From Thauera carbonicopians (lineage in GTDB: Bacteria; Pseudomonadota; Gammaproteobacteria; Burkholderiales; Rhodocyclaceae), in contig NZ_JANUXN010000003.1 of NCBI RefSeq assembly GCF_025699485.1, forward strand, positions 372,001 through 436,000: a stretch of 64,000 nucleotides of DNA. The letters run 5' to 3'. Below are positions 29,866-59,940 of this stretch, piece after piece. Under the pieces are notes generated by a model that saw nothing but the letters and a program-made list of their open reading frames with translations, was not told where the DNA came from and searched no databases. The position numbers and the translations under genes were made by a program. The first letter of the stretch is position 1; every line of letters begins with the position of its first letter.

Positions 29866-29866
29866 G

Positions 29867-35694: not shown

Positions 35695-36732
35695 TCAGCG
35701 GTGCTGGCTTTCCTGGTTGGGAATGCCGTCGATCGGGCATTCCGCCGTGCCCACCGTCGAGCGGGTGAGGGCTTCGACCTTCTTGCGCGTGCCTTCCGGA
35801 TCGTTGATCCATTCGCCGTAGAAGCTGTAGGGGCAGGCGGCGACGCCGGCCGCATCCTCGCCGGAGTTGATCTTGCCGGTGTAGCCGCGGTGCAGCAGTT
35901 TGAACAGGTGGTTCTGCGACTGCGCGTTCTTGCGGAAATCGCGGATCAGGCTGGTGGACAGTTCGGCGTACTGGATGCCCATGTCCTCTTCACCGCATTC
36001 GCCCAGTGTGCGGCCGTCGAAGCCGATGATGGCGGAATGGCCGAAGTAGGAATACACGCCGTCGAAGCCGGTGGCATTGGCGACCGCGACGTAGCAGTTG
36101 TTCATCCACGCCATCGCCTTCGACACCATCACCTGCTGGTCCTTGGCCGGGTACATGTAGCCCTGGCAGCGGATGACCAACTCGGCGCCCTTCATCGCGC
36201 AGTCGCGCCAGATCTCGGGGTAGTTGCCGTCGTCGCAGATGATGAGGCTGATCTTCATGCCCTTCGGGCCGTCGGACACATAGGTGCAGTCGCCCGGATA
36301 CCAGCCCTCGATCGGCACCCAGGGCATGATCTTGCGGTACTTCTGCACGATCTCGCCCTGGTCGTTCATCAGGATCAGCGTGTTGTAGGGCGCCTTGTTG
36401 GGATGCTCCTCATGCTGCTCGCCGGTCAGCGAGAACACGCCCCACACCTTGGCCTTGCGGCAGGCGGCGGCGAAGATTTCGGTTTCGTCGCCGGGCACGG
36501 TGGCGGCGGTGTCGTACATCTCCTTGGGGTCGTACATGATCCCGTGGGTGGAGTACTCGGGGAAGATCACCAGATCCATGCCGGGCAGGCCCTGCTTCAT
36601 GCCGACCACCATGTCGGCGATCCTGCGGGCATTGTCCAGCACCTCCGCCCGGGTATGCAGGCGAGGCATCCTGTAATTGACGACGGCAACGCCCACGCAA
36701 TCGGCGCTGCTGGAAATGTCTCCGTGTCTCAT
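35695..36732 (-). CDS. amiE: aliphatic amidase
   Basis: A 345-residue nitrilase-superfamily amidase hydrolysing short aliphatic amides to acid and ammonium. All catalytic residues sit at the classical AmiE numbering: Glu59 (FPEYS), Lys134 (KYRKIMPW), Glu142 (IEGWYPG) and Cys166 ([10 protein letters not shown]). Length and numbering favour AmiE over formamidase AmiF (~334 residues). It heads an operon with the AAA+/VWA pair and lies between the two urea/amide transporter operons. Its leader contains a 12-G homopolymer and two palindromes. Confidence 0.94.
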
Positions 36733-36796: not shown

Positions 36797-36830
36797 TTGT
36801 GCGCTGCACAAATACGTCGTTTGACGTATT
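36797..36830. promoter_or_regulatory. two abutting palindromes upstream of amiE
   Basis: TTGTGC-GCT-GCACAA (36797-36811) abuts AATACGTC-GTTT-GACGTATT (36811-36830), both perfect dyads, 65-98 bases before amiE. Both motifs recur upstream of the second transporter operon (47202-47264), suggesting one regulator controls the two units. Confidence 0.6.
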
Positions 36831-37460: not shown

Positions 37461-37491
37461 CTCATGACGGGGCTGCTCGAGAGGCGGAGCA

Positions 37492-38700: not shown

Positions 38701-38748
38701 GGGCTACATTTTTGATGAAAAAATGGAAAAAGATGCCTGAGGGCTACA
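38701..38748. promoter_or_regulatory. repeat pair at the hipBA promoter
   Basis: GGGCTACA occurs at 38701-38708 and again at 38741-38748, ending at the hipB start codon, with an AT-rich stretch between that probably contains the promoter. A candidate HipB operator pair. Confidence 0.4.
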
Positions 38749-40427: not shown

Positions 40428-40772
40428 TCAGTGGCTGATCATCCACGGCCGCTTGGTCGGGAAGGCTTTCGAGCCGTCGGGCGCACGCAGGGTGGCTTTC
40501 GAGGGCTTGCCGCCGCAGCAGCCGCAGCCCGGCCCGTGCTTGTGGCGGGTGGCGTATTCGGCGCTGGTCATCGGTGCGTGGGCGGCGCGTTCGTTGGTGG
40601 CGTGGGCGCTGCGGCTGGCGCTGTCCAGGGTGGCCAGCGTGGGGGCGCTCAGCATCACGCGGTAGGCGGCGGTGCCGCAGCGGGGGCAGGGGCAGGCTTC
40701 GTTGCGGGCGCTCATCGGGCGCAGCGCGGAGAAGTCGCCGCAGTCTTCGCAGAAGTATTCGTAGGTCGGCAT
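40428..40772 (-). CDS. fmdB: FmdB-type zinc ribbon protein
   Basis: A 114-residue protein: N-terminal FmdB/CxxC_CxxC zinc ribbon (MPTYEYFCEDCGDFSALR, then CPRCG) and a second Cys-rich tail (GPGCGCCGG). FmdB is named from the Methylophilus amide/formamidase cluster, where it was proposed as a regulator. Here it directly follows fmdA. The 59-base gap and strand suggest the last gene of the amide operon. Confidence 0.88.
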   Translation of the reverse strand: MPTYEYFCEDCGDFSALRPMSARNEACPCPRCGTAAYRVMLSAPTLATLDSASRSAHATNERAAHAPMTSAEYATRHKHGPGCGCCGGKPSKATLRAPDGSKAFPTKRPWMISH

Positions 40773-40830: not shown

Positions 40831-42063
40831 TCAGGCCTTGTCGTAGGCGATCGGCATGTCGACGGCGCCGTCGATGAATCTGGTCGGGCCGGCGGCACTC
40901 GGGTTGATGTCGAACTCGAAGATCTCGGTCGGCAGCCACAGCGTGGCGCAGGCGTTGGGGATGTCGACCACGCCGCTGATGTGGCCCTGCACCGGCGCGG
41001 TGCCGAGGATGGAGTAGGCCTGGGCGCCGGAGTAGCCGAACTTCTTCAGGTACTCGATGGCGTTGAGGCAGGCCTGGCGGTAGGCCACATGCACGTCGAG
41101 GTAGTGCTGCTTGCCCTGCTCATCGACCGAGATGCCTTCGAAGATGACGTAGTCCTTGTAGCTCGGCGTGATCGGGCTGGGCTTGAAGATCGGGTTCTTG
41201 ATGGCGTACTTGGCCATGCCGTCCTTGATCAGGCTGACGCGCATGTGCACCCAGCCGGCCATCTCGATGGCGCCGCAGAAGGTGATCTCGCCGTCGCCCT
41301 GGGAGAAGTGCAGGTCGCCCACCGACAGGCCGGCGCCCTTGACGTAGACCGGGAAGAACACGCGTGCGCCGCGCGATAGGTCCTTGATGTCGCAGTTGCC
41401 GCCGTGTTCGCGCGGCGGCACGGTGCGGGCGCCTTCGGCGGCGGCCTTGTCGCGCGCCTCGCCCTTGAGCTTGCCCATGTGCGCGGTCCTGGGCGCGGGC
41501 GGGTTGGCCAGCGGCGGCACGCGGTCGGGCTGGGTGGCGATGAAATCCACTTCGCGCTCGTTCCAGGTGTCGAGCATCTTCTGGTCGGGCAGGCAGCCGA
41601 TCAGGCCGGGGTGGATCAGGCCGGCGAAGCGCACGCCGGGGATGTGGCGGCTCTTGGTGAACATGCCTTCGAAGTCCCAGATCGACTTCTGCGCGTGGGG
41701 GAAGTGCTCGGTCAGGAAGCCGCCGCCGTTGGTCTTGGAGAAGAAGCCGTTGAAGCCCCACAGGCTCTCGTCCTTGGCGCCGATGTCGAGCAGGTCGACC
41801 ACCAGCAGGTCGCCGGGCTCGGCGCCTTCGACGCCGACCGGGCCGGACAGGAAATGCACCGTCGACAGGTCGACGTCGCGCACGTCGGACGCATCGTCGT
41901 CGTTCTTGATCGCGCCGCCGGTCCAGTCGTAGGTTTCGAGCACGAAGTCGTCGCCCGGCTTGACCCAGCACGCCATCGGGATGTCCGGGTGCCAGCGGTT
42001 GTGCACCATCTCGTTTTCGTAGGGGGACTGCTTCAGATCGACCTTGATCAGGGTTTCAGGCAT
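40831..42063 (-). CDS. fmdA: formamidase (acetamidase/formamidase family)
   Basis: A 410-residue cytoplasmic formamidase hydrolysing formamide to formate and ammonium, unrelated to nitrilase-type amidases. Characteristic segments are YENEMVHNRWHPDIPM, DLSTVHFLSGPVGVEGAEPGDLLVVD and ISGVVDIPNACATLWLPTEIFEFDI. Length matches Methylophilus FmdA (~407). It lies 23 bases after the UrtE-like gene of the second transporter, so amide import and hydrolysis are encoded by one operon. Confidence 0.95.
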   Translation of the reverse strand: MPETLIKVDLKQSPYENEMVHNRWHPDIPMACWVKPGDDFVLETYDWTGGAIKNDDDASDVRDVDLSTVHFLSGPVGVEGAEPGDLLVVDLLDIGAKDESLWGFNGFFSKTNGGGFLTEHFPHAQKSIWDFEGMFTKSRHIPGVRFAGLIHPGLIGCLPDQKMLDTWNEREVDFIATQPDRVPPLANPPAPRTAHMGKLKGEARDKAAAEGARTVPPREHGGNCDIKDLSRGARVFFPVYVKGAGLSVGDLHFSQGDGEITFCGAIEMAGWVHMRVSLIKDGMAKYAIKNPIFKPSPITPSYKDYVIFEGISVDEQGKQHYLDVHVAYRQACLNAIEYLKKFGYSGAQAYSILGTAPVQGHISGVVDIPNACATLWLPTEIFEFDINPSAAGPTRFIDGAVDMPIAYDKA

Positions 42064-42086: not shown

Positions 42087-42776
42087 TTACACGGAGAGGA
42101 ACTGCTTGATGTGGGCTTCGTCGGTGTCGGCGCGCGCGCTTTCATGGACGAGGCGTCCGCCTTCGATGACGAACAGGCGGTCGGCCACGTCCATCGCGAA
42201 GGAAAGAACCTGCTCGGACACGACGATGGTGATCTGGCGGATCTTGCGGATCTCGTTCAGCGCCTTCGCGATGTCCTTGATGATCGAGGGCTGGATTCCC
42301 TCGGTGGGCTCGTCGAGCAGCAGCACCTTGGGCTCGGTGACGAGCGCGCGGGCGATCGCCAGTTGCTGCTGCTGGCCGCCCGACAGGTTGCCGCCCTTGC
42401 GCCGGCGCATGTCCCACAGCACCGGGAACAGGGCGTAGATTTCCTCGGGCACTTTCTTGACCCTGGCGTTCTCCAGCCCGGTCTCGATGTTTTCCTGCAC
42501 CGTGAGGGTGGGGAAGATCATCCGGCCCTGCGGCACGTAGGCGATGCCCTTGGCGACGCGGCGGTAGCTTTCGTCCTTGCCGACTTCGACGCCGTCGACC
42601 TCGACGCTGCCGGACCTGAGCGGCAGCACGCCCATCAGCGACTTGAACAAGGTGGTCTTGCCCATGCCGTTGCGGCCCATGATGGCGACGGCTTCATTGC
42701 GCTGCGCGGCGAACGAGATGCCGTGCAGGGCCTCGCTCTGGCCGTAATTGACGACGAGGTTGGATACCTTGAGCAT
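42087..42776 (-). CDS. amide/urea ABC transporter ATPase, UrtE-like (second system)
   Basis: A 229-residue ABC ATPase: Walker A GRNGMGKTT, signature LSGGQQQQLAIARAL, Walker B VLLLDEPTEGIQPSI. Clearly paralogous to UrtE at 27051 but diverged, for example in its C-terminus. Last transporter gene before fmdA. Confidence 0.92.
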   Translation of the reverse strand: MLKVSNLVVNYGQSEALHGISFAAQRNEAVAIMGRNGMGKTTLFKSLMGVLPLRSGSVEVDGVEVGKDESYRRVAKGIAYVPQGRMIFPTLTVQENIETGLENARVKKVPEEIYALFPVLWDMRRRKGGNLSGGQQQQLAIARALVTEPKVLLLDEPTEGIQPSIIKDIAKALNEIRKIRQITIVVSEQVLSFAMDVADRLFVIEGGRLVHESARADTDEAHIKQFLSV

Positions 42777-42805
42777 GGTGTTCTCCAGTGGGGGCGTGGC
42801 CGCAA

Positions 42806-43549
<744 letters not shown>

Positions 43550-43570
43550 GATGTCTGTCTCCCTGTGCCG

Positions 43571-44830
43571 TCAGGCCGACTGGCTGCTGACCTTGGTGCC
43601 GAGGCCCAGGCCGGGGTCGGCGGCGACCGCGGGTGTGGAATGTGGGGCCGCGGGGGAAGCCGAGGGGCCGGGCGATGCGATCGGGGCGGCAGCCTGCTGG
43701 CCGGCTTCGCCCGGCGTGCCGGCCGGCGGTCCGCCGGCCTCGGCGGCACCGCCCTTGCGCCGCGCCAGCCAGGGCTTGACGTGGCTCTCGTACAGGCCGG
43801 CCAGGCCGTTGGGGAAGGCCATGACGACACCGATGAACAGCGCGGCCATCAGGAACAGCCACAGGTCGGGGAAGGTCTCGGAGAAGTAGGTCTTGCCGAA
43901 ATTGACCAGCAGCGCGCCATACACCGCGCCGACCAGGCTCATGCGTCCGCCCACCGCGGCGAAGATCACCATCTCGATCGAGGGCACGATGCCGATCAGC
44001 GTCGGCGACATGAAGCCGACCTGCAGCGTGAATAGCGCGCCGCCGATCGCCGACAGCGCCGCCGCCAGGCAGAAGGCGAAGACCTTGAACATCGACACGT
44101 CGTAGCCCGAGAAGCGCACGCGGTCTTCCTTGTCGCGCATCGCCAGTAGCAGCGTGCCGAGCTTGCTGAGCTGGATCCAGCGGCACAGCAGCACGGCGGC
44201 GAGCAGCAGCGCGGTCGTGACGAAATACAGCACGGTCTTGGCTTCGTCGCTGCGGATGTCCCAGCCGAGCAGGGTCTTGAGGTCGGTCATGCCGTTGACG
44301 CCGCCGGTGTAGCCCTGCTGGCCGATGATCAGCACGGTCAGGATCAGCGCCACCGCCTGGGTGATGATGGCGAAATACACCCCGCCGACGCGGCGCTTGA
44401 ACATCGCGTAGCTGATGACGAAGGCCAGCAGCACCGGCACCGCCACCACCGCGGACAGGGTGAAGCCGAAGGAGTTGAACGGTTCCCACCACAGCGGCAG
44501 CGCGGTGAGCTGGTTCCAGTCCATGAAGTCGGGGATGCCCGGCGTCGACTGGATGGCGGTGCTTTGCGGGTCGGACGCTTCCAGCTTCAGGAACATCGCC
44601 ATCGCGTAGCCGCCGAGGCCGAAGAACACGCCCTGGCCCAGGCTCAGCACGCCGCCGTAGCCCCACAGCATCACCAGGCCGATGGCGACGAAGCCGTAGG
44701 TCAGGTACTTGCCGACCAGGTTCAGGCGGAAGCTGTCCATCGCCAGCGGGAACACCACCAGCAGCAGGACGGCGAGGATCGCGATGCTGGCGAGGCCGCT
44801 GCGATCCAGCCAGGTTTTGAGTGCATCCAT
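43571..44830 (-). CDS. amide/urea ABC transporter permease, UrtC-like (second system)
   Basis: A 419-residue LivM-type permease with the GYGGVLSLGQGVFFGLGGYAMAMFL signature and TGGVNGMTDLKTLLG. The C-terminal ~60 residues after the last helix are Pro/Ala/Gly-rich and variable. Corresponds in role to FmdF of Methylophilus. Confidence 0.92.
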   Translation of the reverse strand: MDALKTWLDRSGLASIAILAVLLLVVFPLAMDSFRLNLVGKYLTYGFVAIGLVMLWGYGGVLSLGQGVFFGLGGYAMAMFLKLEASDPQSTAIQSTPGIPDFMDWNQLTALPLWWEPFNSFGFTLSAVVAVPVLLAFVISYAMFKRRVGGVYFAIITQAVALILTVLIIGQQGYTGGVNGMTDLKTLLGWDIRSDEAKTVLYFVTTALLLAAVLLCRWIQLSKLGTLLLAMRDKEDRVRFSGYDVSMFKVFAFCLAAALSAIGGALFTLQVGFMSPTLIGIVPSIEMVIFAAVGGRMSLVGAVYGALLVNFGKTYFSETFPDLWLFLMAALFIGVVMAFPNGLAGLYESHVKPWLARRKGGAAEAGGPPAGTPGEAGQQAAAPIASPGPSASPAAPHSTPAVAADPGLGLGTKVSSQSA

Positions 44831-44870
44831 GATTGGCTCTCCGTGGGTTCTCGTGTGTCGGGGCGCCGGA

Positions 44871-45785
44871 TCAGCGGCGTACCTTGGATGCGAACAGGCC
44901 TTGCGGGCGCAGCATCAGGATGGTCACGATCAGCAGCAGGGTCAGCACCTTGGCCATCGAGCCGGACAGGAAGAACTCCGAGATCGACTGCGTCTGGGCG
45001 ATGCCGAAGGCCGACACCACGGTGCCCCACAGACTGGCGGCGCCGCCGAAGGTCACCACCAGGAAGGCGTCGACGATGTACAGCGAGCCGCTGGTCGGGC
45101 CGGTCGAGCCGATGGTGGTGAAGGCCGCGCCGGCGACGCCGGCGATGCCGCAGCCGATGGCGAAGGTGACGCGGTCGGTGCGCGTGGTGTTGATGCCGGT
45201 GGCGTTGGCCATGGCGCGGTTGGCGACGGTGGCGCGCACGCGCAGGCCCCAGCGCGACTTGTACAGCGCCAGCAGCACGCCGCCGGTGACGAGCAGGGTG
45301 AGGGCGAGCACGAACATGCCGTTGATCGGGATGTCGAGGCCTTCGGTGACTTCCCACGAGCCCATCAGCCAGTCGGGCAGCGTGGGGCTGACTTCCTTCG
45401 GCCCGATCAGGGTGCGGAAGGCCTGCTGCATCGCCAGCGACAGGCCCCAGGTGGCGAGCAGGGTGTCGAGCGGGCGCTTGTACAGGTGCCGGATCAGCGC
45501 CCATTCCGCCAGCCAGCCGAAGATGAAAGCGACGATGAAAGCGCAGACGATGGCGAAGGGGAAATAGGCCTGCATCAGTCCCGGCGCGTAGCTTTCGGTC
45601 AGCGTCGACAGCAGGAAGATGGTGTAGGCGCCGATGGTCATGAACTCGCCGTGCGCCATGTTGATGACGCCCATCTGGCCGAAGATGATCGCCAGGCCCA
45701 GCCCCATCAGCAGCAGCACCGCGAACAGGCTCAGGCCGGCAAAACCCTGCATCAGGGTGATGTTGTAGATTTCGTCGAAGGACAT
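44871..45785 (-). CDS. amide/urea ABC transporter permease, short UrtB-like (second system)
   Basis: A 304-residue LivH-type permease (MQGFAGLSLFAVLLLMGLGLAIIFGQMGVINMAHGE) that lacks the ~220-residue N-terminal domain of UrtB in the first operon. This short form fits FmdE of the short-chain amide transporter better than a canonical UrtB, which is the main reason to treat the second system as an amide transporter. Confidence 0.92.
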   Translation of the reverse strand: MSFDEIYNITLMQGFAGLSLFAVLLLMGLGLAIIFGQMGVINMAHGEFMTIGAYTIFLLSTLTESYAPGLMQAYFPFAIVCAFIVAFIFGWLAEWALIRHLYKRPLDTLLATWGLSLAMQQAFRTLIGPKEVSPTLPDWLMGSWEVTEGLDIPINGMFVLALTLLVTGGVLLALYKSRWGLRVRATVANRAMANATGINTTRTDRVTFAIGCGIAGVAGAAFTTIGSTGPTSGSLYIVDAFLVVTFGGAASLWGTVVSAFGIAQTQSISEFFLSGSMAKVLTLLLIVTILMLRPQGLFASKVRR

Positions 45786-45855: not shown

Positions 45856-47106
45856 TTACTGGTAGCCCTTGGGGAAGGGGTCCGGCACCATCAGCTCGGG
45901 CGATTCCGCCACCACCTTGAAGCTGCCGTCGGGCTGGCCTTCGGCGATGCGGGCCTTGCTGTACAGGTGGTGGTTCTCGTGGATCTTCACGTAGCCTTCG
46001 GGCGCGGTCGGCAGCTCGATGCCCGGCGAGGCGGCGACGACCTTGTCGACGTCGAAGCTGCCTGCCTTCTCGACCGCCGCCTTCCACAGCCAGGGGCCGA
46101 GATAGGCCGCCTGGGTGACGTCGCCGATCACCGCCTTCGGCCCGTAGGCCTTCTTGAAGGCTTCGACGAAGGCCTTGTTGTTGGCGTTGTCGAGCGACTG
46201 GAAGTACTTCATCGAGGAATAGAAGCCGGCGAAGTTTTCGCCGCCGACGCCCAGCATCTCGTCCTCGGTCACCGACAGCGTCAGCAGGAACTGCTTCGCG
46301 CCGGTGATGCCGGCCGCCTTCAACTGCTTGTAGAAGGCCACGTTCGAGCCGCCCACCACCGCGGCGAAGATGCAGTCCGGCTTGGCGATCTTGATCTTGT
46401 TGATCAGCGAGTTGAAGTTGGTGTGGCCGAGCGGGTAGTACTCCTCGCCGACGATCTTGCCGCCCTGGAAGGCCTCGACGTGCTTGCGCGCGATCTTCAT
46501 CGAGGTGCGCGGCCAGATGTAGTCGGAGCCGATCAGGAAGAAGGTCTTGGCGCTTTTTTCCTGCTTGGCCCAGTCGAGGCCGTAGAGGATCTGCTGGGTC
46601 GCTTCCTGGCCGGTGTAGATGACGTTCTTCGACTGCTCCAGGCCTTCGTAGAAGGTCGGGTAGTAGAGCAGGCCGTTTTCCTTCTCGAAGATCGGCAGCA
46701 CCGCCTTGCGCGAGGCCGAGGTCCAGCAGCCGAACACGGTGGCGACCTTGTCGTTGACCAGCAGCTTGCGCGACTTCTCGGCGAAGGTCGGCCAGTCGGA
46801 GGCGCCGTCTTCCTTGATGACGCGGATCTTGCGGCCGAGGATGCCGCCCATCGCGTTGATCTGGTCGATGGCGAGCTGTTCGGCCTGGATCGAGCCGGTC
46901 TCGGAGATCGCCATGGTGCCGGTGGCCGAGTGCAGCTGGCCGACCACGACCTCGGTGTCGGTGACGGCCAGGCCGGTGGTATTGACCTGGGCGGTGGGCA
47001 GCGCGGCGGCATGGCCGATGCGGGACATCGCCAGGGCGAGCGGGAGGGCTGCGGCGCCGAGCATGAACTTGCGGCGCTGGGAGGAGGGCAGGTGCTGGTC
47101 GGACAT
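45856..47106 (-). CDS. periplasmic amide/urea-binding protein, UrtA/FmdD-like
   Basis: A 416-residue binding protein. Its N-terminus SSQRRKFMLGAAALPLALAM has a twin-arginine pattern, suggesting Tat export after folding, unlike the Sec-type UrtA of the first operon. Family motifs: GQLHSATGTMAISETGS, FGCWTSASRKAVLPIF and YYPTFYEGLEQSKNVIYTGQ. ATG at 47106 is chosen for the AAGGAG ribosome site six bases upstream. Proposed ligand: short-chain amides and/or urea. Confidence 0.92.
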   Translation of the reverse strand: MSDQHLPSSQRRKFMLGAAALPLALAMSRIGHAAALPTAQVNTTGLAVTDTEVVVGQLHSATGTMAISETGSIQAEQLAIDQINAMGGILGRKIRVIKEDGASDWPTFAEKSRKLLVNDKVATVFGCWTSASRKAVLPIFEKENGLLYYPTFYEGLEQSKNVIYTGQEATQQILYGLDWAKQEKSAKTFFLIGSDYIWPRTSMKIARKHVEAFQGGKIVGEEYYPLGHTNFNSLINKIKIAKPDCIFAAVVGGSNVAFYKQLKAAGITGAKQFLLTLSVTEDEMLGVGGENFAGFYSSMKYFQSLDNANNKAFVEAFKKAYGPKAVIGDVTQAAYLGPWLWKAAVEKAGSFDVDKVVAASPGIELPTAPEGYVKIHENHHLYSKARIAEGQPDGSFKVVAESPELMVPDPFPKGYQ

Positions 47107-47201: not shown

Positions 47202-47264
47202 AATACGTCAAACGACGTATGGGGATGCGCAGGCGGCGGCGCTATGGTTTTGTGCAGCGCACAG
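47202..47264. promoter_or_regulatory. palindromes upstream of the amide operon
   Basis: AATACGTC-AAAC-GACGTAT (47202-47220) and TTGTGC-AGC-GCACAG (47250-47264) are the same two motifs found before amiE, here about 30 bases apart. A further GGTGCACAAAC half-site occurs near 47169. They lie in the 351-base divergent region between the binding-protein gene and the hybrid kinase gene; no sigma-54 element was found facing the operon. Confidence 0.6.
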
Positions 47265-47316: not shown

Positions 47317-47333
47317 TGCGCCGACACGGTGCG
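47317..47333. promoter_or_regulatory. NtrC-like dyad upstream of the hybrid kinase
   Basis: TGCGCC-GACAC-GGTGCG, ten of twelve arm positions matching TGCACC-N5-GGTGCA, about 65-80 bases upstream of the sigma-54-like element. Confidence 0.45.
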
Positions 47334-47396
47334 AACCGGCGCGCGCTGCGAACCGTGGAGGGCCGCGGTGCCGTCCCCGGGGCCCGTGTGCCGTAC

Positions 47397-47412
47397 GGGA
47401 ACGCCTTTTGCT
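47397..47412 (+). promoter_or_regulatory. sigma-54-like promoter of the hybrid kinase
   Basis: GGGAACGCCTTTTGCT has GG and GC 12 bases apart and shares 14 of 16 positions with the element before ureD. It lies 46 bases from the kinase start and supports the GTG at 47458 over longer versions beginning upstream of the promoter. Confidence 0.6.
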
Positions 47413-47457
47413 GAACCTCGGGCTTGCCCCGATCCTTTTCTCTCGCCGCCTATCGCC

Positions 47458-50400
47458 GTGACCGCTCCTGCCACCCAGCGCATTCTCCCCATCCGCCGCG
47501 AGTACAACGCCTGGGTCGCGGACGAGACGCTGGAGGACTACGCCCTGCGTTATGCGCCGCTCGGCTTCCGCAAGTGGTCGTTCTCGCGCATCGCCAATAC
47601 CGCGCTCGGCGCGGTGTCCTTTCTCGCCCTGGAGGCGATCGGCGGCACCATCGCGCTGAACTGGGGCTTCACCAACGCGGTGTGGGCGATCGGCCTGGTG
47701 GCGCTGGTGATCTTCCTCACTGGCCTGCCGATCAGCTACTACGCCGCGCGCGAGGCGCTGGACATGGACCTGCTGACGCGCGGCGCCGGCTTCGGCTACA
47801 TCGGCTCGACCATCACCTCGCTGATCTACGCCTCCTTCACCTTCATCTTCTTCGCCATCGAGGCGGCGATCATGGCGTTGGCGCTGGAACTATGGTTCGG
47901 CCTGCCGCTGCAGTGGGGCTATCTGCTCAGTTCGCTGGTGGTGATTCCGCTGGTCACGCACGGCATCACCTGGATCAGCCGCCTGCAGGCGTGGACCCAG
48001 CCGGTGTTCGTCGTGCTGCTGCTGACGCCCTTCTTCTTCATGCTGGTGCGCGAGCCCGAGCTGTACGTGGCCTTCACCGAATTCGGCGGCCGCCACGGCA
48101 ACAGCTTCGACTGGCTGGCGGTCGGGGCCGGCTGTACCGTGGCGGTGGCGCTGATCTCGCAGATCGGCGAGCAGGTCGACTTCCTGCGCTTCCTGCCGCC
48201 GCCGGGCAGGCGCAACACGCTGCGCTGGTGGGCGTCGGTGATCGCCGCCGGGCCGGGCTGGATCATCCCCGGCGCGCTGAAGATGCTGGGCGGCGCCTTC
48301 CTCGCCTTTGTCGCGCTGCAGGCGATGGTGCCGCCCGACAAGGCCTTGCAGCCGACGCAGATGTACCTGGCCGGCTTCGGCCACGTGGTGGACGATCCGC
48401 GCGCCGCGGTGGCGCTGGCCTGCGTCTTCGTCATCATCTGCCAGGTCAAGATCAACGTCACCAACGCCTATGCCGGCTCGCTGGCCTGGTCGAACTTCTT
48501 CTCGCGCCTGACCCACAGCCATCCCGGACGGGTGGTATGGCTGATCTTCAACGTGCTGATCGCCTTGATGCTGATGCTGCTGGGGGTGTTCGAGGCGCTG
48601 GAACAGGTGCTCGGCGTGTATGCCAGCGTGGCGGTGGCCTGGATCGGCGCGGTGGTGGCGGATCTCGTCGTCAACAAGCCGCTCGGCCTGTCGCCGCGCC
48701 ACATCGAGTTCAAGCGCGCCTACCTGTACGACATCAATCCGGTCGGCGTCGGTTCGATGCTGGCCGGTTCGGTGCTCGGCATCGTCGCCTTCGGCGGCCA
48801 TCTGGGCGCCGCGGCGCAGGCTTTCGCGCCCTTCATCTCGCTCGGCACCGCCTTCGTGCTGGCGCCGCTGATCGCCTGGGCCAGCGGCGGCCGTTATTAC
48901 CTCGCCCGGCCGCGCGAAACGCAGTGGCGGCCGGCGCAGCAACTGCGCTGCGTGGTGTGCGAGAACCGCTTCGAGTCCGAGGACATGGCGCAGTGCCCAG
49001 CCTACGGCGGCGCGATCTGTTCGCTGTGCTGCACGCTGGATGCGCGCTGCCGCGACCGCTGCAAGCCGGCACCTGGCTTGTTCGGGCGCCTGGCGGCGCG
49101 GATGGCAGGCTGGATGCCGTCGCCGGCTTCGGCGCGGGTGGCGCGGCGGGTGGGGCAGTTCCTGCTGGTGTTCTCGGTCTGCAGCCTGGTGCTGGCCGCG
49201 GTGGTGGCGCTGGTCTACCAGCAGGAGCTGATCGCCGCCGAGGCCGGCGAAACCGATCTCGGCATCGCCTTCGTGCGCATCTTCGCGGTGCTGGTGCTGC
49301 TCGCCGCGCTCGGCATCTGGTGGCTGGTCCTGGTCAATGAAAGCCGGCGGGTGGCGCAGGAGGAGTCCGAGCGCCAGAACCAGCTGCTGCTGCGCGAGAT
49401 CGAGGCCCACCGCGACACCGACGCCAAGCTGCAGCAGGCCAAGGAAGACGCCGAGGCCGCCAATGCGGCCAAGAGCCGCTACGTGCGCGGCATCAGCCAC
49501 GAGCTGCGCACGCCGCTCAACACCATTCTCGGCTACTGCCAGATCATGCTGCGCGACACCGACCTGCCGCGCCGGCGGCGCGACGCGATCTCCACCATCC
49601 AGCGCAGCGGCGAGCACCTGCTGGGGCTGATCGACGGCCTGCTCGACATCGCCAGCATCGAGGCCGGCCGCCTGCAGTTCAGGCGCGAGGAAATCCGCTT
49701 CGGCGAATTCCTCGCCCACATCGAAAAGATGTTCCGTCTCGAAGCGGTGAGGAAGGGGCTGGATTTCCGCTCCGAGTTCAGCGACGGCATGCCCGAAGTG
49801 GTGCAGGGCGACACCGGCCGCTTGCGCCAGATCCTGATCAACCTGCTCGCCAACGCGGTGCGCTATACCGAGCGCGGCGAAGTGCGGCTGAAGATCGCCT
49901 GGCGAAGCGAGACCGCGGTGTTCGAGGTCTGCGATACCGGCTGCGGCATCGCGCAGGAGGACATGGAGCGCATCTTCCTGCCCTTCGAGCGTGGCGCCGG
50001 TGCTGGCGTGGCCAGCGTACCCGGCACGGGCCTGGGGCTGACGATCACCCGCCTGCTGGTCGAACTCGCCGGCGGCCAGCTCACCGTCAGCAGCACGCCG
50101 GGGCGCGGCAGCGTGTTCCGCGTCAAGCTTCACCTGCCGCGCGTTGCCCGGCCGAAGCTGGCGCTGCGGCCCGAGCGCGAGATCCGCGGCTATGCCGGCC
50201 GCCGCCGCTGCCTGCTGGTGGTGGATGACCAGCCCGGCCAGAGCCGGCTGATCGCCGACATGTTGCGGCCGCGCGGCTTCCTGGTGCATGAATGCCGGCA
50301 TCCGGACGAAGTGCCGGGCCTGCTCGGCAGCTTGCAGCCCGACTTGGTTTTCCTCGATGTGTCGATGCCGGTGCTCGACGGCTGGACGCTGTGCCGCCGG

Positions 50401-50931
50401 CTGCGCGACGCCGGTCACGGCATGCCGATCGTGATGGTTTCGGCCAATGCCTACGAGAACCTGCCGCAGCGGCGCGAGGCGGCAGGCTGCGATGACTTCA
50501 TCGTCAAGCCGGTGCTGGAAACCGAACTCTTTGCGTGCCTGAGCGCCTGGCTGGGGCTGCGCTGGATCTATGCGGACGCCCAGGCGGGCGGAGAGACCGG
50601 CGCGGGCGCCGGGCATACCATGCCGGTGCCTTCGCCGGTGCCGCATGCACTGCAGCGGAGCATGGGAGTGGCCGGCGATGCCTTGCTGACGGTCACTGAT
50701 CTCCTCTCTGCGGTACCTGACTCCGGGCTGTCGGGGCTGTCTGCACGCGTCCGTGCCGAGCTGCGCGACCTGGCCGATCTGGGCCACCTGCAGGGCTTGG
50801 TCCGCCGCCTCGACGAACTCGAGGTGCTGCACCCCGAACTGCAGGCGCCGCTTGCCTCGCTGCGTGAAATGACACTCGCTCTACGCTTCGACGCCCTGCT
50901 GCGAGTGCTGGATGAGGCTGCCGATGACTGA
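47458..50931 (+). CDS. NCS1-type permease fused to a hybrid histidine kinase
   Basis: A ~1157-residue protein in four parts. Residues ~10-480 form an NCS1-like permease with about twelve helices (EYNAWVADETLEDYALRYAP; VKINVTNAYAGSLAWSNFF). Residues ~499-540 hold a Cys-rich, zinc-ribbon-like segment (CVVCENRF, then CPAYGGAICSLCC). Two more helices follow (~567-627), a coiled stretch, HisKA with His681 in GISHELRTPLN, HATPase with GTGLGLTITRL, and a receiver with phospho-Asp967 (FLDVSMPVLDG). The ~140-residue tail may be an HPt-like helical domain without an obvious His motif. The layout parallels SLC5-fused CbrA kinases. A substrate-sensing role for amides or urea is inferred from the divergent transporter operon. 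Confidence 0.88.
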   Translation: MTAPATQRILPIRREYNAWVADETLEDYALRYAPLGFRKWSFSRIANTALGAVSFLALEAIGGTIALNWGFTNAVWAIGLVALVIFLTGLPISYYAAREALDMDLLTRGAGFGYIGSTITSLIYASFTFIFFAIEAAIMALALELWFGLPLQWGYLLSSLVVIPLVTHGITWISRLQAWTQPVFVVLLLTPFFFMLVREPELYVAFTEFGGRHGNSFDWLAVGAGCTVAVALISQIGEQVDFLRFLPPPGRRNTLRWWASVIAAGPGWIIPGALKMLGGAFLAFVALQAMVPPDKALQPTQMYLAGFGHVVDDPRAAVALACVFVIICQVKINVTNAYAGSLAWSNFFSRLTHSHPGRVVWLIFNVLIALMLMLLGVFEALEQVLGVYASVAVAWIGAVVADLVVNKPLGLSPRHIEFKRAYLYDINPVGVGSMLAGSVLGIVAFGGHLGAAAQAFAPFISLGTAFVLAPLIAWASGGRYYLARPRETQWRPAQQLRCVVCENRFESEDMAQCPAYGGAICSLCCTLDARCRDRCKPAPGLFGRLAARMAGWMPSPASARVARRVGQFLLVFSVCSLVLAAVVALVYQQELIAAEAGETDLGIAFVRIFAVLVLLAALGIWWLVLVNESRRVAQEESERQNQLLLREIEAHRDTDAKLQQAKEDAEAANAAKSRYVRGISHELRTPLNTILGYCQIMLRDTDLPRRRRDAISTIQRSGEHLLGLIDGLLDIASIEAGRLQFRREEIRFGEFLAHIEKMFRLEAVRKGLDFRSEFSDGMPEVVQGDTGRLRQILINLLANAVRYTERGEVRLKIAWRSETAVFEVCDTGCGIAQEDMERIFLPFERGAGAGVASVPGTGLGLTITRLLVELAGGQLTVSSTPGRGSVFRVKLHLPRVARPKLALRPEREIRGYAGRRRCLLVVDDQPGQSRLIADMLRPRGFLVHECRHPDEVPGLLGSLQPDLVFLDVSMPVLDGWTLCRRLRDAGHGMPIVMVSANAYENLPQRREAAGCDDFIVKPVLETELFACLSAWLGLRWIYADAQAGGETGAGAGHTMPVPSPVPHALQRSMGVAGDALLTVTDLLSAVPDSGLSGLSARVRAELRDLADLGHLQGLVRRLDELEVLHPELQAPLASLREMTLALRFDALLRVLDEAADD

Positions 50932-51586
50932 GACGAATGCCACTGCGCGTGAGCGCGCGGTCGTGCTGCTGATCGACGATGCGCCCGACACGGTGCGCAT
51001 GATCGCCGAGGCGCTCGACGACGCCGGCTATACCGTGCTGGTGGCAACCGACGGCGTTACCGCGCTGAAGCGGGTCGGGCGCGTCATTCCCGACGCGGTG
51101 CTGCTCGATGCCTGCATGCCGGGCATGGATGGTTTCGAGACTTGCCGCCGGCTCAAGCAGGTATCGGGCATGCGCACCGTGCCGGTGATCTTCATGACCG
51201 GGCTGGCGGAAACCGAGCGCTTGGTCGAAGGTTTGTCGGCCGGCGGCATCGACTACCTGGTGAAGCCTGTGGTACCCGACGAGTTGGTTGCCCGGCTGCA
51301 GGCCCATCTGCGTGTCGCGCGAGAAATGAATGCCGCGATCAGCGCCCGCGGCAGTGAGGCGTCGGCGGAAAGTGCGTCACCGGGCCTGCTGCCGAATCCG
51401 CTGACTCCGCGCGAAATGGACGTGCTGGAATGGGTGGCGCGCGGCAAGACCAACCGCGACGTGGCGGAAATCCTCGACATGAGCCCGCGCACCGTCAACA
51501 AGCATCTCGAGCACATTTACGAGAAGCTCGGAGTGGAAACGCGGACCGCCGCGGTCGCCCAGTTCGCGCGGCTGGCACGTCCCTGA
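50924..51586 (+). CDS. LuxR-type response regulator
   Basis: A 220-residue regulator: receiver domain (LLIDDAPDT; phospho-Asp in VLLDACMPGMDG; Lys in YLVKPV) and a LuxR/GerE helix-turn-helix (LTPREMDVLEWVARGKTNRDVAEILDMSPRTVNKHLEHIYEKLGV). Its ATG lies inside the kinase stop region (eight-base overlap), so the two are strictly coupled and form a phosphorelay. Candidate targets are the ATACGTC-N4-GACGTAT palindromes before amiE and the amide operon. Confidence 0.92.
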   Translation: MTETNATARERAVVLLIDDAPDTVRMIAEALDDAGYTVLVATDGVTALKRVGRVIPDAVLLDACMPGMDGFETCRRLKQVSGMRTVPVIFMTGLAETERLVEGLSAGGIDYLVKPVVPDELVARLQAHLRVAREMNAAISARGSEASAESASPGLLPNPLTPREMDVLEWVARGKTNRDVAEILDMSPRTVNKHLEHIYEKLGVETRTAAVAQFARLARP

Positions 51587-52226: not shown

Positions 52227-52403
52227 GGTATCAGGCAAGTCTGATGCGCGCTATCACGGCTGTGTGATTTCCGTACGCGAAGTGTGCTGTTAACTTGAGA
52301 AAAGCGCACGCAAAGTCGTTCGCCGGCCTGTTTGCCATCGATTTGCCCGATTCCCGTTCCGCTTCTTTTTCCTGCCACCCACAGCTTTCTCCGGAGCCAA
52401 AAA

Positions 52404-53279
52404 ATGATAAAGAGACACCCTCGCGGTAAGACGCTCGCCATCGTCTGTGCCTTTGCCGCCCTGCCGGCCGTCGCCCAGGCGGCGACCTGGAGCGACACCT
52501 TCATCGGCTATCGCTACGGTACCGACTTCCGCGAGCCCAACAACACCGAGAAGGTGCGCAAGCATGTGCTGCAGCTCACCCATGCCAGCGGCTATTCGAT
52601 CGGGCAGCATTTCGTGAACCTCGACGTCTTCCAGTCCGACGACAAGGATCCGACGACGCGCAACGGCAGCAACGGCGCCACCGAGTTCTACCTGACCTAC
52701 CGTCACCAGTTCCATCTGAGCAAGATCTTCGACCGCAGCCTCGCCTTCGGTCCGGTCAAGGAAGTCGCGCTGACCGCCGGTTTCGACCTCAACACCAAGA
52801 ACACCACCTTCGCGCCGCGCAAGCGTCTGCTGGTCATCGGCCCGACGCTGAAGTTCGACGTGCCGGGCTTCCTCGACGTCAGCCTGCTGTACGGCAAGGA
52901 ATGGAACCACTGCGGCCTCGGCTCGCCCGCCTGCCCGAAGAGCGACATCGCTTTCGACCCGCAATGGATCCTGAGCGCGGCCTGGGGCATCCCCTTCAAC
53001 GCCGGTCCGGTGCCGCTGAAGTTCCAGGGCTTTATCAACGTCAACAGCGAAAAGGGCAAGGACTACGCCGGCGTCGAGACCAAGACCGAAACCCTGATGC
53101 GCACTTCGCTGATGGTCGACGTCGGCCAGATGGCCTGGGGCAAGAAGAACACTTTCCTGATGGGCGTGGGCTACGAATACTGGCGCAACAAATTCGGCAA
53201 CCATGCCTTCGCCAATGGCGATCAGAAGCCGGGCATCAAGACCACGGCGCCGATGTTCCAGATGGAACTGCACTTCTGA
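52404..53279 (+). CDS. Tsx-like outer-membrane channel protein
   Basis: A 291-residue outer-membrane beta-barrel: signal peptide (LAIVCAFAALPAVAQAA) then WSDTFIGYRYGTDFREP, alternating amphipathic strands and a C-terminal Phe (MFQMELHF). The LAFGPVKEVALTAGFDLNTKN block resembles the nucleoside-channel Tsx superfamily. GGAG lies seven bases before the ATG. A porin (FmdC) is part of the Methylophilus amide-uptake cluster; this gene may serve the same purpose, though it is separated from the operon by the kinase, regulator and dksA genes. Confidence 0.8.
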   Translation: MIKRHPRGKTLAIVCAFAALPAVAQAATWSDTFIGYRYGTDFREPNNTEKVRKHVLQLTHASGYSIGQHFVNLDVFQSDDKDPTTRNGSNGATEFYLTYRHQFHLSKIFDRSLAFGPVKEVALTAGFDLNTKNTTFAPRKRLLVIGPTLKFDVPGFLDVSLLYGKEWNHCGLGSPACPKSDIAFDPQWILSAAWGIPFNAGPVPLKFQGFINVNSEKGKDYAGVETKTETLMRTSLMVDVGQMAWGKKNTFLMGVGYEYWRNKFGNHAFANGDQKPGIKTTAPMFQMELHF

Positions 53280-55020: not shown

Positions 55021-55693
55021 AGCCGTCCCGCCGGCATCCGCCGCGGTCTGCCCGGTGTGCCGGGGCGCCGACGTGCGCCCCTTCATGTGCGTCGAAGGGC
55101 GGGACTATCTGCGCTGCGGACGCTGCGAGGCGACTTTCCTGCTGCCCGCGCAGCACCCTGCGGCGGCAGCCGAGCGGGCGGAGTACGAGCTGCATTGCAA
55201 CGATGCCGCCGATCCAGCCTATCGCCGTTTTCTCGGCCGCTTGGCCGCGCCGCTGCTGGCACGATTGGCGCCGGCGAGCACGGGACTGGACTACGGCTGC
55301 GGCCCCGGCCCGGCATTGGCCGGCATGCTGCGCGCAGCCGGGCATGCGGTGGCGCTGTACGACCCCTTCTTCGTGCCGGATGCCACCGCGCTGGCGCGAA
55401 GCTACGACTTCATCACCTGCACCGAGGTCGCGGAGCATTTCCATGATCCGGCAGCCGAATTCGCCCGCCTCGACGGCCTGCTGCGGCCCGGCGGCTGGCT
55501 GGCGGTGATGACCTGTTTCCAGACCGACGATGCCCGCTTCGCCGGCTGGCATTACCGCCGCGACCCGACGCACGTGGTGTTCTACCGCGAGGCGACCTTC
55601 CGCTGGCTGGCGGATCGTTTCGGCTGGTTGTGCGAAGTGCCGTGCAAGGACGTGGCGCTGATGAAGAAAGCGCAGGGCGGCGACACGCCCTAA
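54998..55693 (+). CDS. class I SAM-dependent methyltransferase with N-terminal zinc motif
   Basis: A 231-residue protein from a GTG start within the DMT gene's end. An N-terminal CPVCRGAD with a CGRCEATF zinc ribbon is followed by a Rossmann methyltransferase domain: motif I LDYGCGPGPALAGML, the acidic VALYDPFF and CTEVAEHFHDPAAEFARLDGLLRPGG. It resembles small-molecule C/O-methyltransferases; the target is unknown. Translational coupling to the DMT carrier suggests they act together, for example in modifying and exporting a compound. Confidence 0.82.
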   Translation: MPDNARAEAVPPASAAVCPVCRGADVRPFMCVEGRDYLRCGRCEATFLLPAQHPAAAAERAEYELHCNDAADPAYRRFLGRLAAPLLARLAPASTGLDYGCGPGPALAGMLRAAGHAVALYDPFFVPDATALARSYDFITCTEVAEHFHDPAAEFARLDGLLRPGGWLAVMTCFQTDDARFAGWHYRRDPTHVVFYREATFRWLADRFGWLCEVPCKDVALMKKAQGGDTP

Positions 55694-55793
55694 GGCAGGG
55701 CGCCGGCCGCTGCGGCTTCGGCCTGCGGGATTGGGACACGGCAGCAGGTTCGATGCACTCGGCGGCCTTGTCCCTAGACGCCGATCGAGTTCA

Positions 55794-55810
55794 TGCACCG
55801 AGATGGTGCA
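55794..55810. promoter_or_regulatory. NtrC binding site upstream of ureD
   Basis: Perfect dyad TGCACC-GAGAT-GGTGCA, matching the NtrC consensus TGCACC-N5-GGTGCA in both arms, about 110-125 bases upstream of the -24/-12 element. It lies in the 251-base space before the urease operon. Confidence 0.8.
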
Positions 55811-55917
55811 AGTCTTCGATCGCGGACTGTCCGACTGCCTGCCATCGACCGTTCCGGTGCCGGAGTGGCGCTGAAATTTCCTTGATCGACAAGCAGATAC
55901 GGCCTTCCTGCCAGTGC

Positions 55918-55933
55918 TGGAACGCCGTTTGCT
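55918..55933 (+). promoter_or_regulatory. sigma-54 promoter of the urease operon
   Basis: TGGAACGCCGTTTGCT fits TGGCACG-N4-TTGCW with one mismatch (C to A). The -12 GC is 12-13 bases before the ureD ATG, so transcription would begin at or next to the start codon. Confidence 0.75.
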
Positions 55934-55944
55934 TATCGTCCGGG

Positions 55945-56814
55945 ATGAACGCCGTAAGCACGCCCGAAACCCATGCCCTGGCCGAGCAGCTCGCCGGCCG
56001 CGGCTGGCGGGCCGAATTGCGCCTTGGCTATGAGCGGCGCGGCGGGCGGACGGTGCTGGCGCGCCGCGAACATGTCGGACCGCTGGTGGTGCAGCGGCCG
56101 CTGTATCCCGAAGGAGAGGCGGTATGCCACACCATTCTGGTGCATCCGCCGGCGGGGATTGCGGGCGGCGACCGCCTGAGCGTCGATCTCGACGTCGGGC
56201 CGGGCGCGCATGCGCTGGTGACCACCCCGGGCGCGGGCAAGTGGTACCGCAGTGCGGGGCAGACGGGCTCGCTGGCGCAGCGCATCGAAGTCGCTGCCGG
56301 CGGCGTCTGCGAATGGTTGCCGCAGGAGAGCATCGTCTTCGATGGCGCGCTGGGCGAGCTGTCTACCGACGTGCGCCTGCATGGCGACGCCTGCTTCGTC
56401 GGCAGCGAGATGCTGTGCTTCGGGCGCACCGCGTCCGGCGAGCGCTTCAACCATGGCGAACTGGCGATGCGCACCCGGATCGAGCGCGACGGCCGTCCGC
56501 TGTGGCTCGAACGCGGTGTGCTGGCGGGCGGCAGCGCCTTGCTCGGCGTGGCGGTCGGCATGCAGGGGCAGCCGGTCGGCGGCAGCTTCGTCGTCGCTTC
56601 GCCGCACTGTGATGGTGCATTGCTCGAATGCTGGCGCGGCATCGAAACCGAGGCGGGTCAGGGCGCGGTGACGCTGCTGCCCGGCCTGCTGCTGGCGCGC
56701 TGGCTGGGGCCGGTCTGCGAGCCGGGGCGGGCGTGGTTCGCGCGCCTGTGGGCTGCGGCGCGGCCGGTGGTGGCGGGGCGGGAAGCGCAGACCCCGCGCA
56801 TCTGGAATACCTGA
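55945..56814 (+). CDS. ureD: urease accessory protein UreD
   Basis: A 289-residue scaffold of the UreDFG nickel-loading complex: family blocks WRAELRLGYERRGGRTVLARR, PLVVQRPLYPEGEAVCHTILVHPPAGIAGGDRL and FNHGELAMRTRI. The ATG has almost no ribosome site and sits at the predicted sigma-54 transcript start. An internal TTG at 56017 would remove 24 residues but also conserved sequence, so the ATG is kept. Confidence 0.94.
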   Translation: MNAVSTPETHALAEQLAGRGWRAELRLGYERRGGRTVLARREHVGPLVVQRPLYPEGEAVCHTILVHPPAGIAGGDRLSVDLDVGPGAHALVTTPGAGKWYRSAGQTGSLAQRIEVAAGGVCEWLPQESIVFDGALGELSTDVRLHGDACFVGSEMLCFGRTASGERFNHGELAMRTRIERDGRPLWLERGVLAGGSALLGVAVGMQGQPVGGSFVVASPHCDGALLECWRGIETEAGQGAVTLLPGLLLARWLGPVCEPGRAWFARLWAAARPVVAGREAQTPRIWNT

Positions 56815-56856
56815 TCAATTGTGTTGCAGGCGGCGCCGGGCGCCGCGGAGAGGACG

Positions 56857-57159
56857 ATGGAACTGACGCCACGCGAGAAGGACAAGCTGCTGATCTTCAC
56901 CGCCGGCCTGCTGGCCGAGCGGCGGCGCGCACGGGGCCTGAAGCTGAACTACCCGGAGGCCGTGGCCTTGATCACCTGCGCGATCCTGGAAGGTGCGCGC
57001 GACGGCCGCACGGTGGCCGAACTGATGAGCCACGGCGCGACGCTGCTGAGACGCGAGGACGTGATGGAAGGGGTGCCGGAGATGATCCCGGACATCCAGG
57101 TCGAGGCGACGTTTCCGGACGGTACCAAGCTGGTGACCGTGCATGCACCGATTGTCTGA
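56857..57159 (+). CDS. ureA: urease gamma subunit
   Basis: A 100-residue gamma subunit: [23 protein letters not shown] through [20 protein letters not shown]. The ATG at 56857 has GGAGAGG upstream; a longer frame from 56821 is unneeded. Part of the (alpha-beta-gamma)3 urease. Confidence 0.97.
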
Positions 57160-57259
57160 CCCCCTTTGGATGGCCTCACCGTCCGCTCCTGCCAATACGC
57201 CTCCACCCGCATGCCGGACATACGTTTGACCATGCTTCAAGGATTCAAGGAGAAATAGC

Positions 57260-57643
57260 ATGATCCCCGGAGAATTCTTCGTCGCCGACGGCGACATCGA
57301 ACTCAATGCCGGTCGCGCCACGCTGAGTCTGGCGGTGAGCAATACCGGCGACCGCCCGATCCAGGTCGGCTCGCACTACCACTTCGCCGAGACCAATGCT
57401 GCGCTGGCCTTCGATCGCGCGGCGGCGCGCGGCTTCCGGCTGAACATCGCGGCGGGCACGGCGGTGCGCTTCGAGCCGGGGCAGTCGCGCACCGTCGAGC
57501 TGGTGGCGCTGGCCGGCGAGCGCGAAGTGTATGGCTTCAACGGCCAGGTCATGGGAGCACTGGGCGAGCCCCCGCGCTCATTGCATTCGCTGCCATCCAT
57601 GGGGGCGCAGGCTTCCCGCGGGGCGGCCCGGCAGGAGGCCTGA
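57260..57643 (+). CDS. ureB: urease beta subunit
   Basis: A 127-residue beta subunit: [64 protein letters not shown] lies upstream. The C-terminal ~25 residues after GALG are an extra low-complexity tail compared with the usual ~101-106 residues. Confidence 0.96.
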
Positions 57644-57644
57644 G

Positions 57645-59351
<1,707 letters not shown>

Positions 59352-59359
59352 ATCCAGCC

Positions 59360-59932: not shown

Positions 59933-59940
59933 GCGTGGAC

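Follow-up and report, generated by a model that had tools for sequence, protein, structure and literature searches.

An NCS1-type permease fused to a hybrid histidine kinase beside an amide/urea uptake operon: a candidate amide-sensing transceptor in Thauera carbonicopians

A single open frame (47329-50931 of the window, the 64,000-nucleotide stretch analysed here) encodes an NCS1-type permease, an eight-cysteine module, two further membrane helices, a HisKA/HATPase kinase and a receiver (Table 1). We consider it likely that the product is a transceptor kinase of NCS1 type which responds to short-chain amides, or to urea in some clades, and drives urt-fmdAB and amiE via its LuxR-type regulator. 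This reading draws on the fold and profile match of the permease, on gene linkage in 132 of 136 family loci, on re-wired and free relatives and on the placement of a palindrome.

Table 1. Features of the locus (window positions; residues in P0001 numbering)
Feature	Position	Strand	Evidence or remark
Permease - eight-cysteine module - 2 TM - hybrid histidine kinase gene	47458..50931	+	Open frame starts 47329; start 47458 probable
12-helix NCS1-type permease domain, 48-535	47470..48933	+	AlphaFold, Foldseek, hhalign, hydropathy
Eight-cysteine module C-x2-C-x11-C-x7-C-x2-CC-x5-C-x3-C, 541-579	48949..49065	+	Invariant in 136/136 loci
Extra transmembrane helix pair, then long helix toward kinase	49138..49347	+	Hydropathy, AlphaFold model helices
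HisKA (H724) and HATPase_c	49468..50139	+	Pfam; catalytic residues invariant
Receiver domain (D1010)	50215..50535	+	Pfam
LuxR/NarL-type response regulator gene	50912..51586	+	Pfam; 20-base overlap with kinase gene end
Predicted operator TACGTCAAACGACGTA	47204..47219	.	97 bases from probable urtA start
Second exact TACGT-N6-ACGTA site	36813..36828	.	80 bases before amiE
urtA-like substrate-binding protein gene	45856..47106	-	TIGR03407 516.9 bits, cut-off 492.75; start chosen by eye
urtB, urtC, urtD, urtE	42087..45785	-	TIGR03409, 03408, 03411, 03410 above cut-off
fmdA, formamidase	40831..42063	-	NF045496 777 bits, cut-off 500
fmdB-like zinc-ribbon protein gene	40428..40772	-	Zn_ribbon_8 45.4 bits, cut-off 34.4; named by context, start set by eye
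amiE, aliphatic amidase, predicted regulon member	35695..36732	-	NF009802 722.7 bits, cut-off 427; CN_hydrolase

The original prediction placed a permease, a Cys-rich segment, a kinase and a receiver in one frame, with a paired LuxR regulator and a divergent amide/urea transporter, and all of these are present. P0001 numbering is counted from 47329, residue 44 being GTG 47458, the probable start of the kinase gene since homology to the family begins near frame residue 48; the predicted His681 and Asp967 are H724 and D1010 in this numbering. Three Pfam domains score above cut-off in frame, HisKA at 714-780, HATPase_c at 827-937 and Response_reg at 963-1069, and the protein has the H, N and G boxes and the receiver aspartate of a hybrid histidine kinase. 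Hydropathy places the extra membrane helices at 604-637 and 639-673; the count of twelve for the permease is an interpretation of the hydropathy plot by eye. The regulator carries Response_reg and GerE (LuxR-type) domains, its weak Pfam matches under cut-off being left aside. On the opposite strand lie urtABCDE, fmdA and an fmdB-like gene, and the formamidase and aliphatic amidase genes, both above curated cut-offs, are each near a predicted operator site.

The NCS1 label proves to be right, but distant. The permease domain of the window protein has no Pfam match at E≤0.1, PF02133 is absent among the 25 families listed, out of 31 Pfam families matched at E≤1 by 72 aligned family members, and a PF02133 search of the T. 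carbonicopians genome matches only another gene. Neither Pfam nor NCBIfam names the permease or the Cys module, and a profile of the permease part finds no solved structure by sequence. The label thus rests on predicted fold, profile-profile comparison and free relatives. The AlphaFold model is middling in this region (pLDDT 79.7); its top five Foldseek matches in the PDB are Mhp1/CodB (best E 2.3e-10), with NCS1 structures placed above SLC5 structures. Compared by hhalign with 21 PF02133 members, the permease scores 99.5% (E 5.2e-23, 394 columns), against 0.5% for a reversed control. Two free relatives pass the PF02133 cut-off of 23.5 bits, one 46% identical (37.7 bits) and one 28% identical (36.4 bits), the latter scoring 59.4 bits, below cut-off, with TIGR00800. 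The window permease shares with Mhp1 and CodB the TM6 motif D-F-x-R-F/Y, but these two have no kinase and differ in their sodium-site and pocket residues. Invariant F/E178 and K374 stand in place of the usual NCS1 residues in TM3 and TM8, at positions that have known roles in Mhp1, TM8 contributing to the sodium site. The TM8 sodium-site residues expected of an NCS1 member are lacking, Lys374 being invariant in the family where the aligned NCS1 sequences mostly have Ser, Thr or Gly. Sodium use is not known for every NCS1 member.

How widespread is this arrangement, and in what company is it found? The 136 family loci comprise the best 80 of 551 relatives, a set that for this reason leans to close kin, and 56 loci from a 398-genome draw, which is free of that lean; the sets overlap in L068/L144 and L032/L207, identical over the tree region. 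The draw gave 62 rows, those outside the 136 being the T. carbonicopians genome itself, a second piece of one gene (G389), a free permease (G193:C40), two fragments (G236, G070) and L122 (G288), a kinase without permease that is related through its kinase half only and is excluded from counts. Of the 338 good-quality Pseudomonadota genomes in the draw, a Cys-module search finds the family in 52, and genomes G158, G246, G225 and G379 have two copies each. Among plasmid records the permease domain has 531 matches, of which 342 come from Klebsiella. The arrangement recurs in Alpha-, Beta- and Gammaproteobacteria, which excludes a chance origin.

The original prediction was to fall if amide genes failed to accompany the fusion in other genomes, and it stands: urt, fmdA or urease genes occur within the fetched stretch in 132 of the 136 loci (median distance 1.7 kb, maximum 7.8 kb), and the remaining four lie at the end of a contig. 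This supports the proposed link of the sensor to amides or urea; in the T. carbonicopians genome the predicted operator points to amiE as a second target. The receiver and HTH parts of a partner regulator are both present downstream of the kinase in 130/136 loci, and a receiver match, with or without the HTH, in 132/136. Two free and three re-wired relatives all adjoin urease, amidase or fmdA genes. The 46%-identical free permease comes after ureG of a urease cluster, and the 28%-identical one sits before a CN hydrolase, a UrtA/AmiC-like protein and AmiR; in the re-wired L119, L120 and L292 the kinase lacks the receiver and has another partner, with the sensor module still near FmdA.

All eight cysteines are invariant throughout the family, and 57 of the 58 matches to a Cys-module profile in the 398 genomes belong to it. 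H724, N838, D869, G899 and G901 are kept in every locus and D1010 in 134/136, missing only from two members without a receiver. Nearly invariant positions number 144/488 in the permease, where invariant polar residues sit in membrane segments, 18/55 in the Cys segment and 17/123 in the membrane linker that follows it. Amide-linked and urea-linked clades have identical invariant polar residues, so that gene linkage alone does not settle the ligand; positions separating them, such as 440, are weak leads. The underlying tree is a quick one, in which two of the four urea-linked groups are affected by flagged long-branch joins.

The gaps between urtA and the kinase gene share a palindrome, TACGTCANNTGACGTA. 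TACG-N8-CGTA is present in 79/99 gaps, whereas none of the other spacings between 0 and 20 is seen in more than 4, and alphaproteobacterial gaps often hold the variant ATACGC-N6-GCGTAT; sigma-54-like sites occur in 7/99 gaps, against 3.2 in shuffles. The 4.5-Mb T. carbonicopians genome has just two exact TACGT-N6-ACGTA sites, one in the urtA-kinase gap and one before amiE, with about one expected by an estimate from base composition. The motif shows no genome-wide enrichment there, one-mismatch sites numbering 13 against 61 for the reversed control, and it is therefore only the placement of the two exact sites that is telling. The palindrome also fronts fmdA or urea-type urtA in other genomes. 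Across 50 family genomes, 25 of 32 sites lie either less than 0.5 kb from the kinase or a short way ahead of an fmdA, amiE or urea-type urtA gene, and seven have no known target; in 22 of these genomes TACGTCANNTGACGTA was not found within one mismatch. Fifty genomes without the family hold five sites.

In our proposal the NCS1-type part, an intact permease domain, would bind its ligand from outside or in the course of transport, the ligand being a small amide of the formamide or acetamide class, or urea in several clades. Movement of the permease would pass through the cytoplasmic eight-cysteine module, the extra membrane helix pair and the long helix to HisKA, and the kinase would then transfer phosphate to the LuxR-type regulator, the internal receiver serving for tuning or relay. 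Bound at TACGTCANNTGACGTA, the regulator would switch on urtABCDE-fmdAB and, in this genome, amiE.

Might the permease sense something else? The usual NCS1 cargo comprises nucleobase, hydantoin or allantoin-like compounds, and such a compound, yielding urea or ammonia, could be the ligand, with the amide genes as mere downstream targets. The matched NCS1 structures are by title nucleobase and hydantoin transporters, and annotators name one free relative 'cytosine permease'. We nevertheless think this improbable: the usual TM3 and TM8 residues are exchanged, both free relatives adjoin urease or CN hydrolase, and a survey of the loci covering amide and urea genes shows urt, fmdA, urease or amiE nearby. 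That the permease is a plain amide/urea importer, fused for joint expression to a kinase that signals for another reason, would suit the free permeases beside the enzymes, yet it is very hard to credit when the 398-genome draw has 57 fused permease-bearing members and one free, and the fusion is retained where the kinase differs.

The cysteines raise a different issue. For CbrA, an SLC5 kinase, a case has been made that the signal is intracellular (PMC7918813), and the true input here could likewise be inside the cell, through a metal or Fe-S cluster held by the eight cysteines or through nitrogen status acting on the cytosolic part, leaving the permease as anchor or plain transporter. The invariant cysteines, in a segment better conserved than the following membrane linker, favour such an input; we regard it as rather unlikely, however, since the permease is equally conserved, its membrane polar residues included. 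Moreover, one free permease without a kinase has a half-length Cys tail, so that the module may be a permease feature. In a more speculative scenario, which we raise only tentatively, an unrecognised NCS1 clade of urea/short-chain amide permeases, with lysine for sodium in the coupling site and a cytoplasmic Cys tail, may have become a kinase input in Proteobacteria, where the completed module, loaded with metal or Fe-S, would act as a second gate, the regulon being on only when both substrate and metal/redox state allow.

Transporter-kinase proteins are termed rare in PMC13022988, and a literature search, with many subscription-journal papers outside its reach, found no NCS1-type kinase. The closest parallels are the SLC5-STAC histidine kinases CbrA and CrbS/MxtR (PMC13022988, PMC7918813, PMC5715377), with which RpuS (PMC9100948) is grouped. 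These share with the window protein an N-terminal LeuT-fold transporter, a linker and a histidine kinase; CrbS is also a hybrid kinase, whose LuxR-type partner CrbR needs an inverted-repeat motif, and PrlS/PrlR likewise pairs a hybrid kinase with a LuxR partner. They differ in having an SLC5 domain with STAC and PAS, where the window protein has an NCS1 domain, the eight-cysteine module and an extra membrane hairpin (SSF and PAS are absent among its Pfam matches), in their DNA motif, and in being linked to carbon sources, for example acetate or histidine, in place of the amides/urea proposed here. The Kuenenia Amt-histidine kinase (PMC5764959) also fuses a nitrogen transporter domain to a histidine kinase, but of the ammonium transporter family, and the start of its abstract does not mention an eight-cysteine module. 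The combination of urtABCDE with formamidase and AmiE is described in PMC3098086 and PMC13209695 (section 13), where the fmdA-linked urt transporter has been proposed to carry amides, not urea; the terms 'histidine kinase' and 'LuxR' occur 0 times in PMC13209695. Amide/urea uptake operons would gain candidates for a dedicated sensor, an operator and a regulon, and NCS1, joined through a linker different from STAC, would be the third transporter family in kinase fusions, after SLC5 and Amt, among the designs known to us.

A single open frame of 1,200 codons (47329-50931, forward strand) carries permease, Cys segment, kinase and receiver, with a LuxR-type regulator gene adjoining; Pfam and a 136-locus comparison thus bear out the arrangement in the original prediction. 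Residues are numbered here from 47329; family homology, by comparison with relatives, starts near residue 48, which makes GTG 47458 (residue 44) a reasonable, though unproven, start. The kinase boxes are in frame and intact, as had been expected, with H724, N838, D869 and the tested glycines kept in 136/136 family members and the receiver D1010 in 134, missing only in two members that have no receiver. Two hydrophobic stretches follow the Cys module and, in the AlphaFold model, a long helix leads from the second into HisKA, implying that the kinase hangs on an extra membrane hairpin and not on the permease itself.

Features of the fused protein (residues), the window (nucleotides) and a Klebsiella plasmid record (L290)
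Feature	Position	Strand	Basis or context
Eight cysteines between permease and kinase	541, 544, 556, 564, 567, 568, 574, 578	+	Each in 136/136
Two hydrophobic stretches after Cys module	604-637, 639-673	+	Hydropathy, AlphaFold model
HisKA	714-780	+	Pfam
HATPase_c	827-937	+	Pfam
Receiver	963-1069	+	Pfam
Receiver + LuxR-type helix-turn-helix gene	50912-51586	+	Pfam; next after kinase
Second urt set	28672-32910 (about 28-33 kb)		Better UrtA score
CbbQ/NorQ-type AAA protein	34877-35812		Adjoins amiE
Exact palindrome site 2	36813-36828		80 bases from amiE
HipA gene + broken RhuM-like gene	within 36960-40355		Between amiE and fmdB; RhuM-like gene by eye only
Exact palindrome site 1	47204-47219		97 bases from probable urtA start
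Tsx-like outer-membrane channel	52332-53279		Downstream; 27.7 bits, cut-off 27.2
Urease operon	about 55630-60650		Named by eye; ureC and ureD match annotated urease cluster
Free NCS1 permease, 46% identical	L290:7941-9548		Behind ureG of urease cluster; annotated 'cytosine permease'

Does the membrane part belong to the NCS1 transporters, as predicted? The Pfam search gave no PF02133 match to the window protein, and PF02133 is absent among 25 of 31 Pfam families listed for 72 relatives. Three other lines say yes. The five best PDB matches of the AlphaFold model (residues 48-714; pLDDT 79.7, pTM 0.77) are Mhp1 and CodB, with E down to 2.3e-10, and Nramp and SLC5 structures rank lower; the family profile aligns with 21 PF02133 proteins over 394 columns (probability 99.5%, E 5.2e-23; reversed control 0.5%); and two free permeases, which share 46% and 28% identity with the window domain, score above the PF02133 cut-off. 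The label therefore stands by fold, profile-profile alignment and bridging relatives, though not by Pfam alone. In the alignment the NCS1 TM6 motif is retained (D284-F-L-R287-F288), Glu178 stands where several NCS1 rows show Gln in TM3, and Lys374 replaces the small TM8 residues of the NCS1 sodium site, both being invariant in 136/136. Both positions have functional roles in Mhp1; a lysine at the TM8 one suggests that sodium may not be needed. Of 103 amide-linked members, 93% have Gly at position 440 (TM10 by hydropathy), where most of 26 urea-linked members have C, S, T or M instead; this is a possible specificity position.

The Cys motif was detected in all 136 family loci. Searched against 398 evenly drawn Pseudomonadota genomes, its profile gave 58 matches, 57 of them within the family, and save for one weak stray the module was not found outside the family in that draw. 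It is modelled, with moderate confidence, as short strands and a helix, which would presumably suit a zinc-ribbon or treble-clef fold; metal, Fe-S and disulphide chemistries are all possible. A family-related hybrid kinase without permease (L122:8857-10713) keeps, by eye, a scrap of the motif and adjoins a gene that, again by eye, is alcohol-dehydrogenase-like.

The predicted co-occurrence with amide genes is borne out elsewhere. The loci compared comprise the best 80 of 551 relatives in GTDB genomes and 56 from the draw, in which the permease-Cys profile matched 55 genomes and the Cys module is present in 52/338 good-quality genomes. Homologues of urt, fmdA or ureC lie within the fetched stretch in 132/136 loci (54/56 for the draw alone), at a median 1.7 kb and maximum 7.8 kb from the kinase between gene midpoints; the other four (L028, L063, L198, L214) are at contig ends, a piece of urtA still being visible in L028 and L198. 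The downstream regulator has both receiver and HTH parts in 130 loci, four others (L003, L008, L056, L071) being cut by contig ends and two (L119, L120) being the receiver-less members. In the commonest layout, which is also the window's, the urt genes and fmdA run divergently from kinase-luxR, and amide-type urtA and fmdA are both present in 86/136 loci. Excerpts of PMC3098086 and PMC13209695 argue that fmdA-linked urt transporters carry amides. Urea-linked members, with canonical urea urtA or urease, fall into four distinct groups interspersed with amide-linked members in a quick tree, in which long-branch warnings affect two of the four.

Copies also occur on plasmids: in PLSDB, 531 records match the permease domain, of which 342 come from Klebsiella and 307 are predicted conjugative, and in 524 the match spans 80% or more of the query. 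Some are free permeases; annotations include 'ATP-binding protein', 'ArcB', 'response regulator' and 'hybrid sensor histidine kinase/response regulator'. Four regions were examined: Klebsiella variicola (urtABCDE, CN-hydrolase-family formamidase, kinase, LuxR gene and palindrome), Rhizobium (urea-type, with palindrome), Paracoccus (L292) and the free permease of L290. In L292, as in L119 and L120, permease and Cys module sit on a shorter kinase without receiver, the next gene in L119 and L120 encoding a receiver-ATPase (kinase-like) protein. The output differs, but FmdA homologues lie a few kilobases or less away in all three; it is thus the sensor part that keeps the amide link. The free permeases agree with this. 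That of L290, whose record has an IS element between ureC and ureE, retains E178, Q278, E281, Q282 and K374, ends in half a Cys module (CVSC...ICSLC) and is a candidate urea permease. The 28%-identical one, with Arg at the K374 position and without E281 and Q282, is followed on one strand by a carbon-nitrogen hydrolase, a UrtA/AmiC-like binding protein and AmiR.

A shared palindrome, a predicted operator, accompanies this linkage. In 99 amide-type loci, the window's among them, the gap between urtA and kinase was compared: TACGT-N6-ACGTA occurs in 56 gaps, and no dyad of equal size exceeds 3 in one shuffle of them; the TACG-N8-CGTA core occurs in 79, each other spacing from 0 to 20 in at most 4; and the consensus TACGTCANNTGACGTA, with up to one mismatch, occurs in 55, and in none in 20 shuffled sets. 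Several alphaproteobacterial gaps carry the variant ATACGC-N6-GCGTAT. A search of 50 family genomes for the consensus, at the same tolerance, gave 32 sites spread over 28 of them, against 12 for the reversed control; 16 of the 32 are no more than 0.5 kb from the kinase, 4 precede fmdA, 1 amiE and 4 urea-type urtA, and 7 have no known target nearby (L253-L259) and are either chance or unknown regulon members. Fifty family-less genomes, smaller on the whole, gave 5 places (reversed control 16). Of the urea-linked loci, 15/26 carry TACGY-N6-RCGTA in the fetched stretch. In 8 of these it is no more than about 200 bases from urtA or the kinase; in 6, from related Oxalobacteraceae, it precedes urtA by some 1.25 kb; and in 1 it falls within the urtA gene.

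The window's own genome has exactly two exact TACGT-N6-ACGTA matches and eleven more with one mismatch. With 61 sites for the reversed control pattern, the palindrome shows no enrichment in itself, and the weight lies in where the exact sites stand. Through the shared palindrome amiE, the aliphatic amidase gene, probably joins the regulon. In five relatives amiE is inside the urt-fmdAB cluster or only some kilobases away from it, which suggests that the window's cluster may have been broken up by an insertion. CbbQ- and NorD-like genes are reported in another ami operon in an excerpt of PMC13209695. Of the window's two urt sets, the second has a UrtA scoring 577.6 bits, compared with 516.9 beside the kinase, and with the urease operon it makes this a nitrogen-scavenging neighbourhood. 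The Tsx-like channel, which locus L001 of Thauera butanivorans has as well, might give the substrate a way through the outer membrane.

We conclude that the reading of the fusion as a putative amide/urea sensor is well supported by gene linkage, separate re-wirings and the shared palindrome. Transporter-kinase proteins of the SLC5 kind (CbrA, CrbS) and of the Amt kind are already known, and the window protein is a new variant compared with both.
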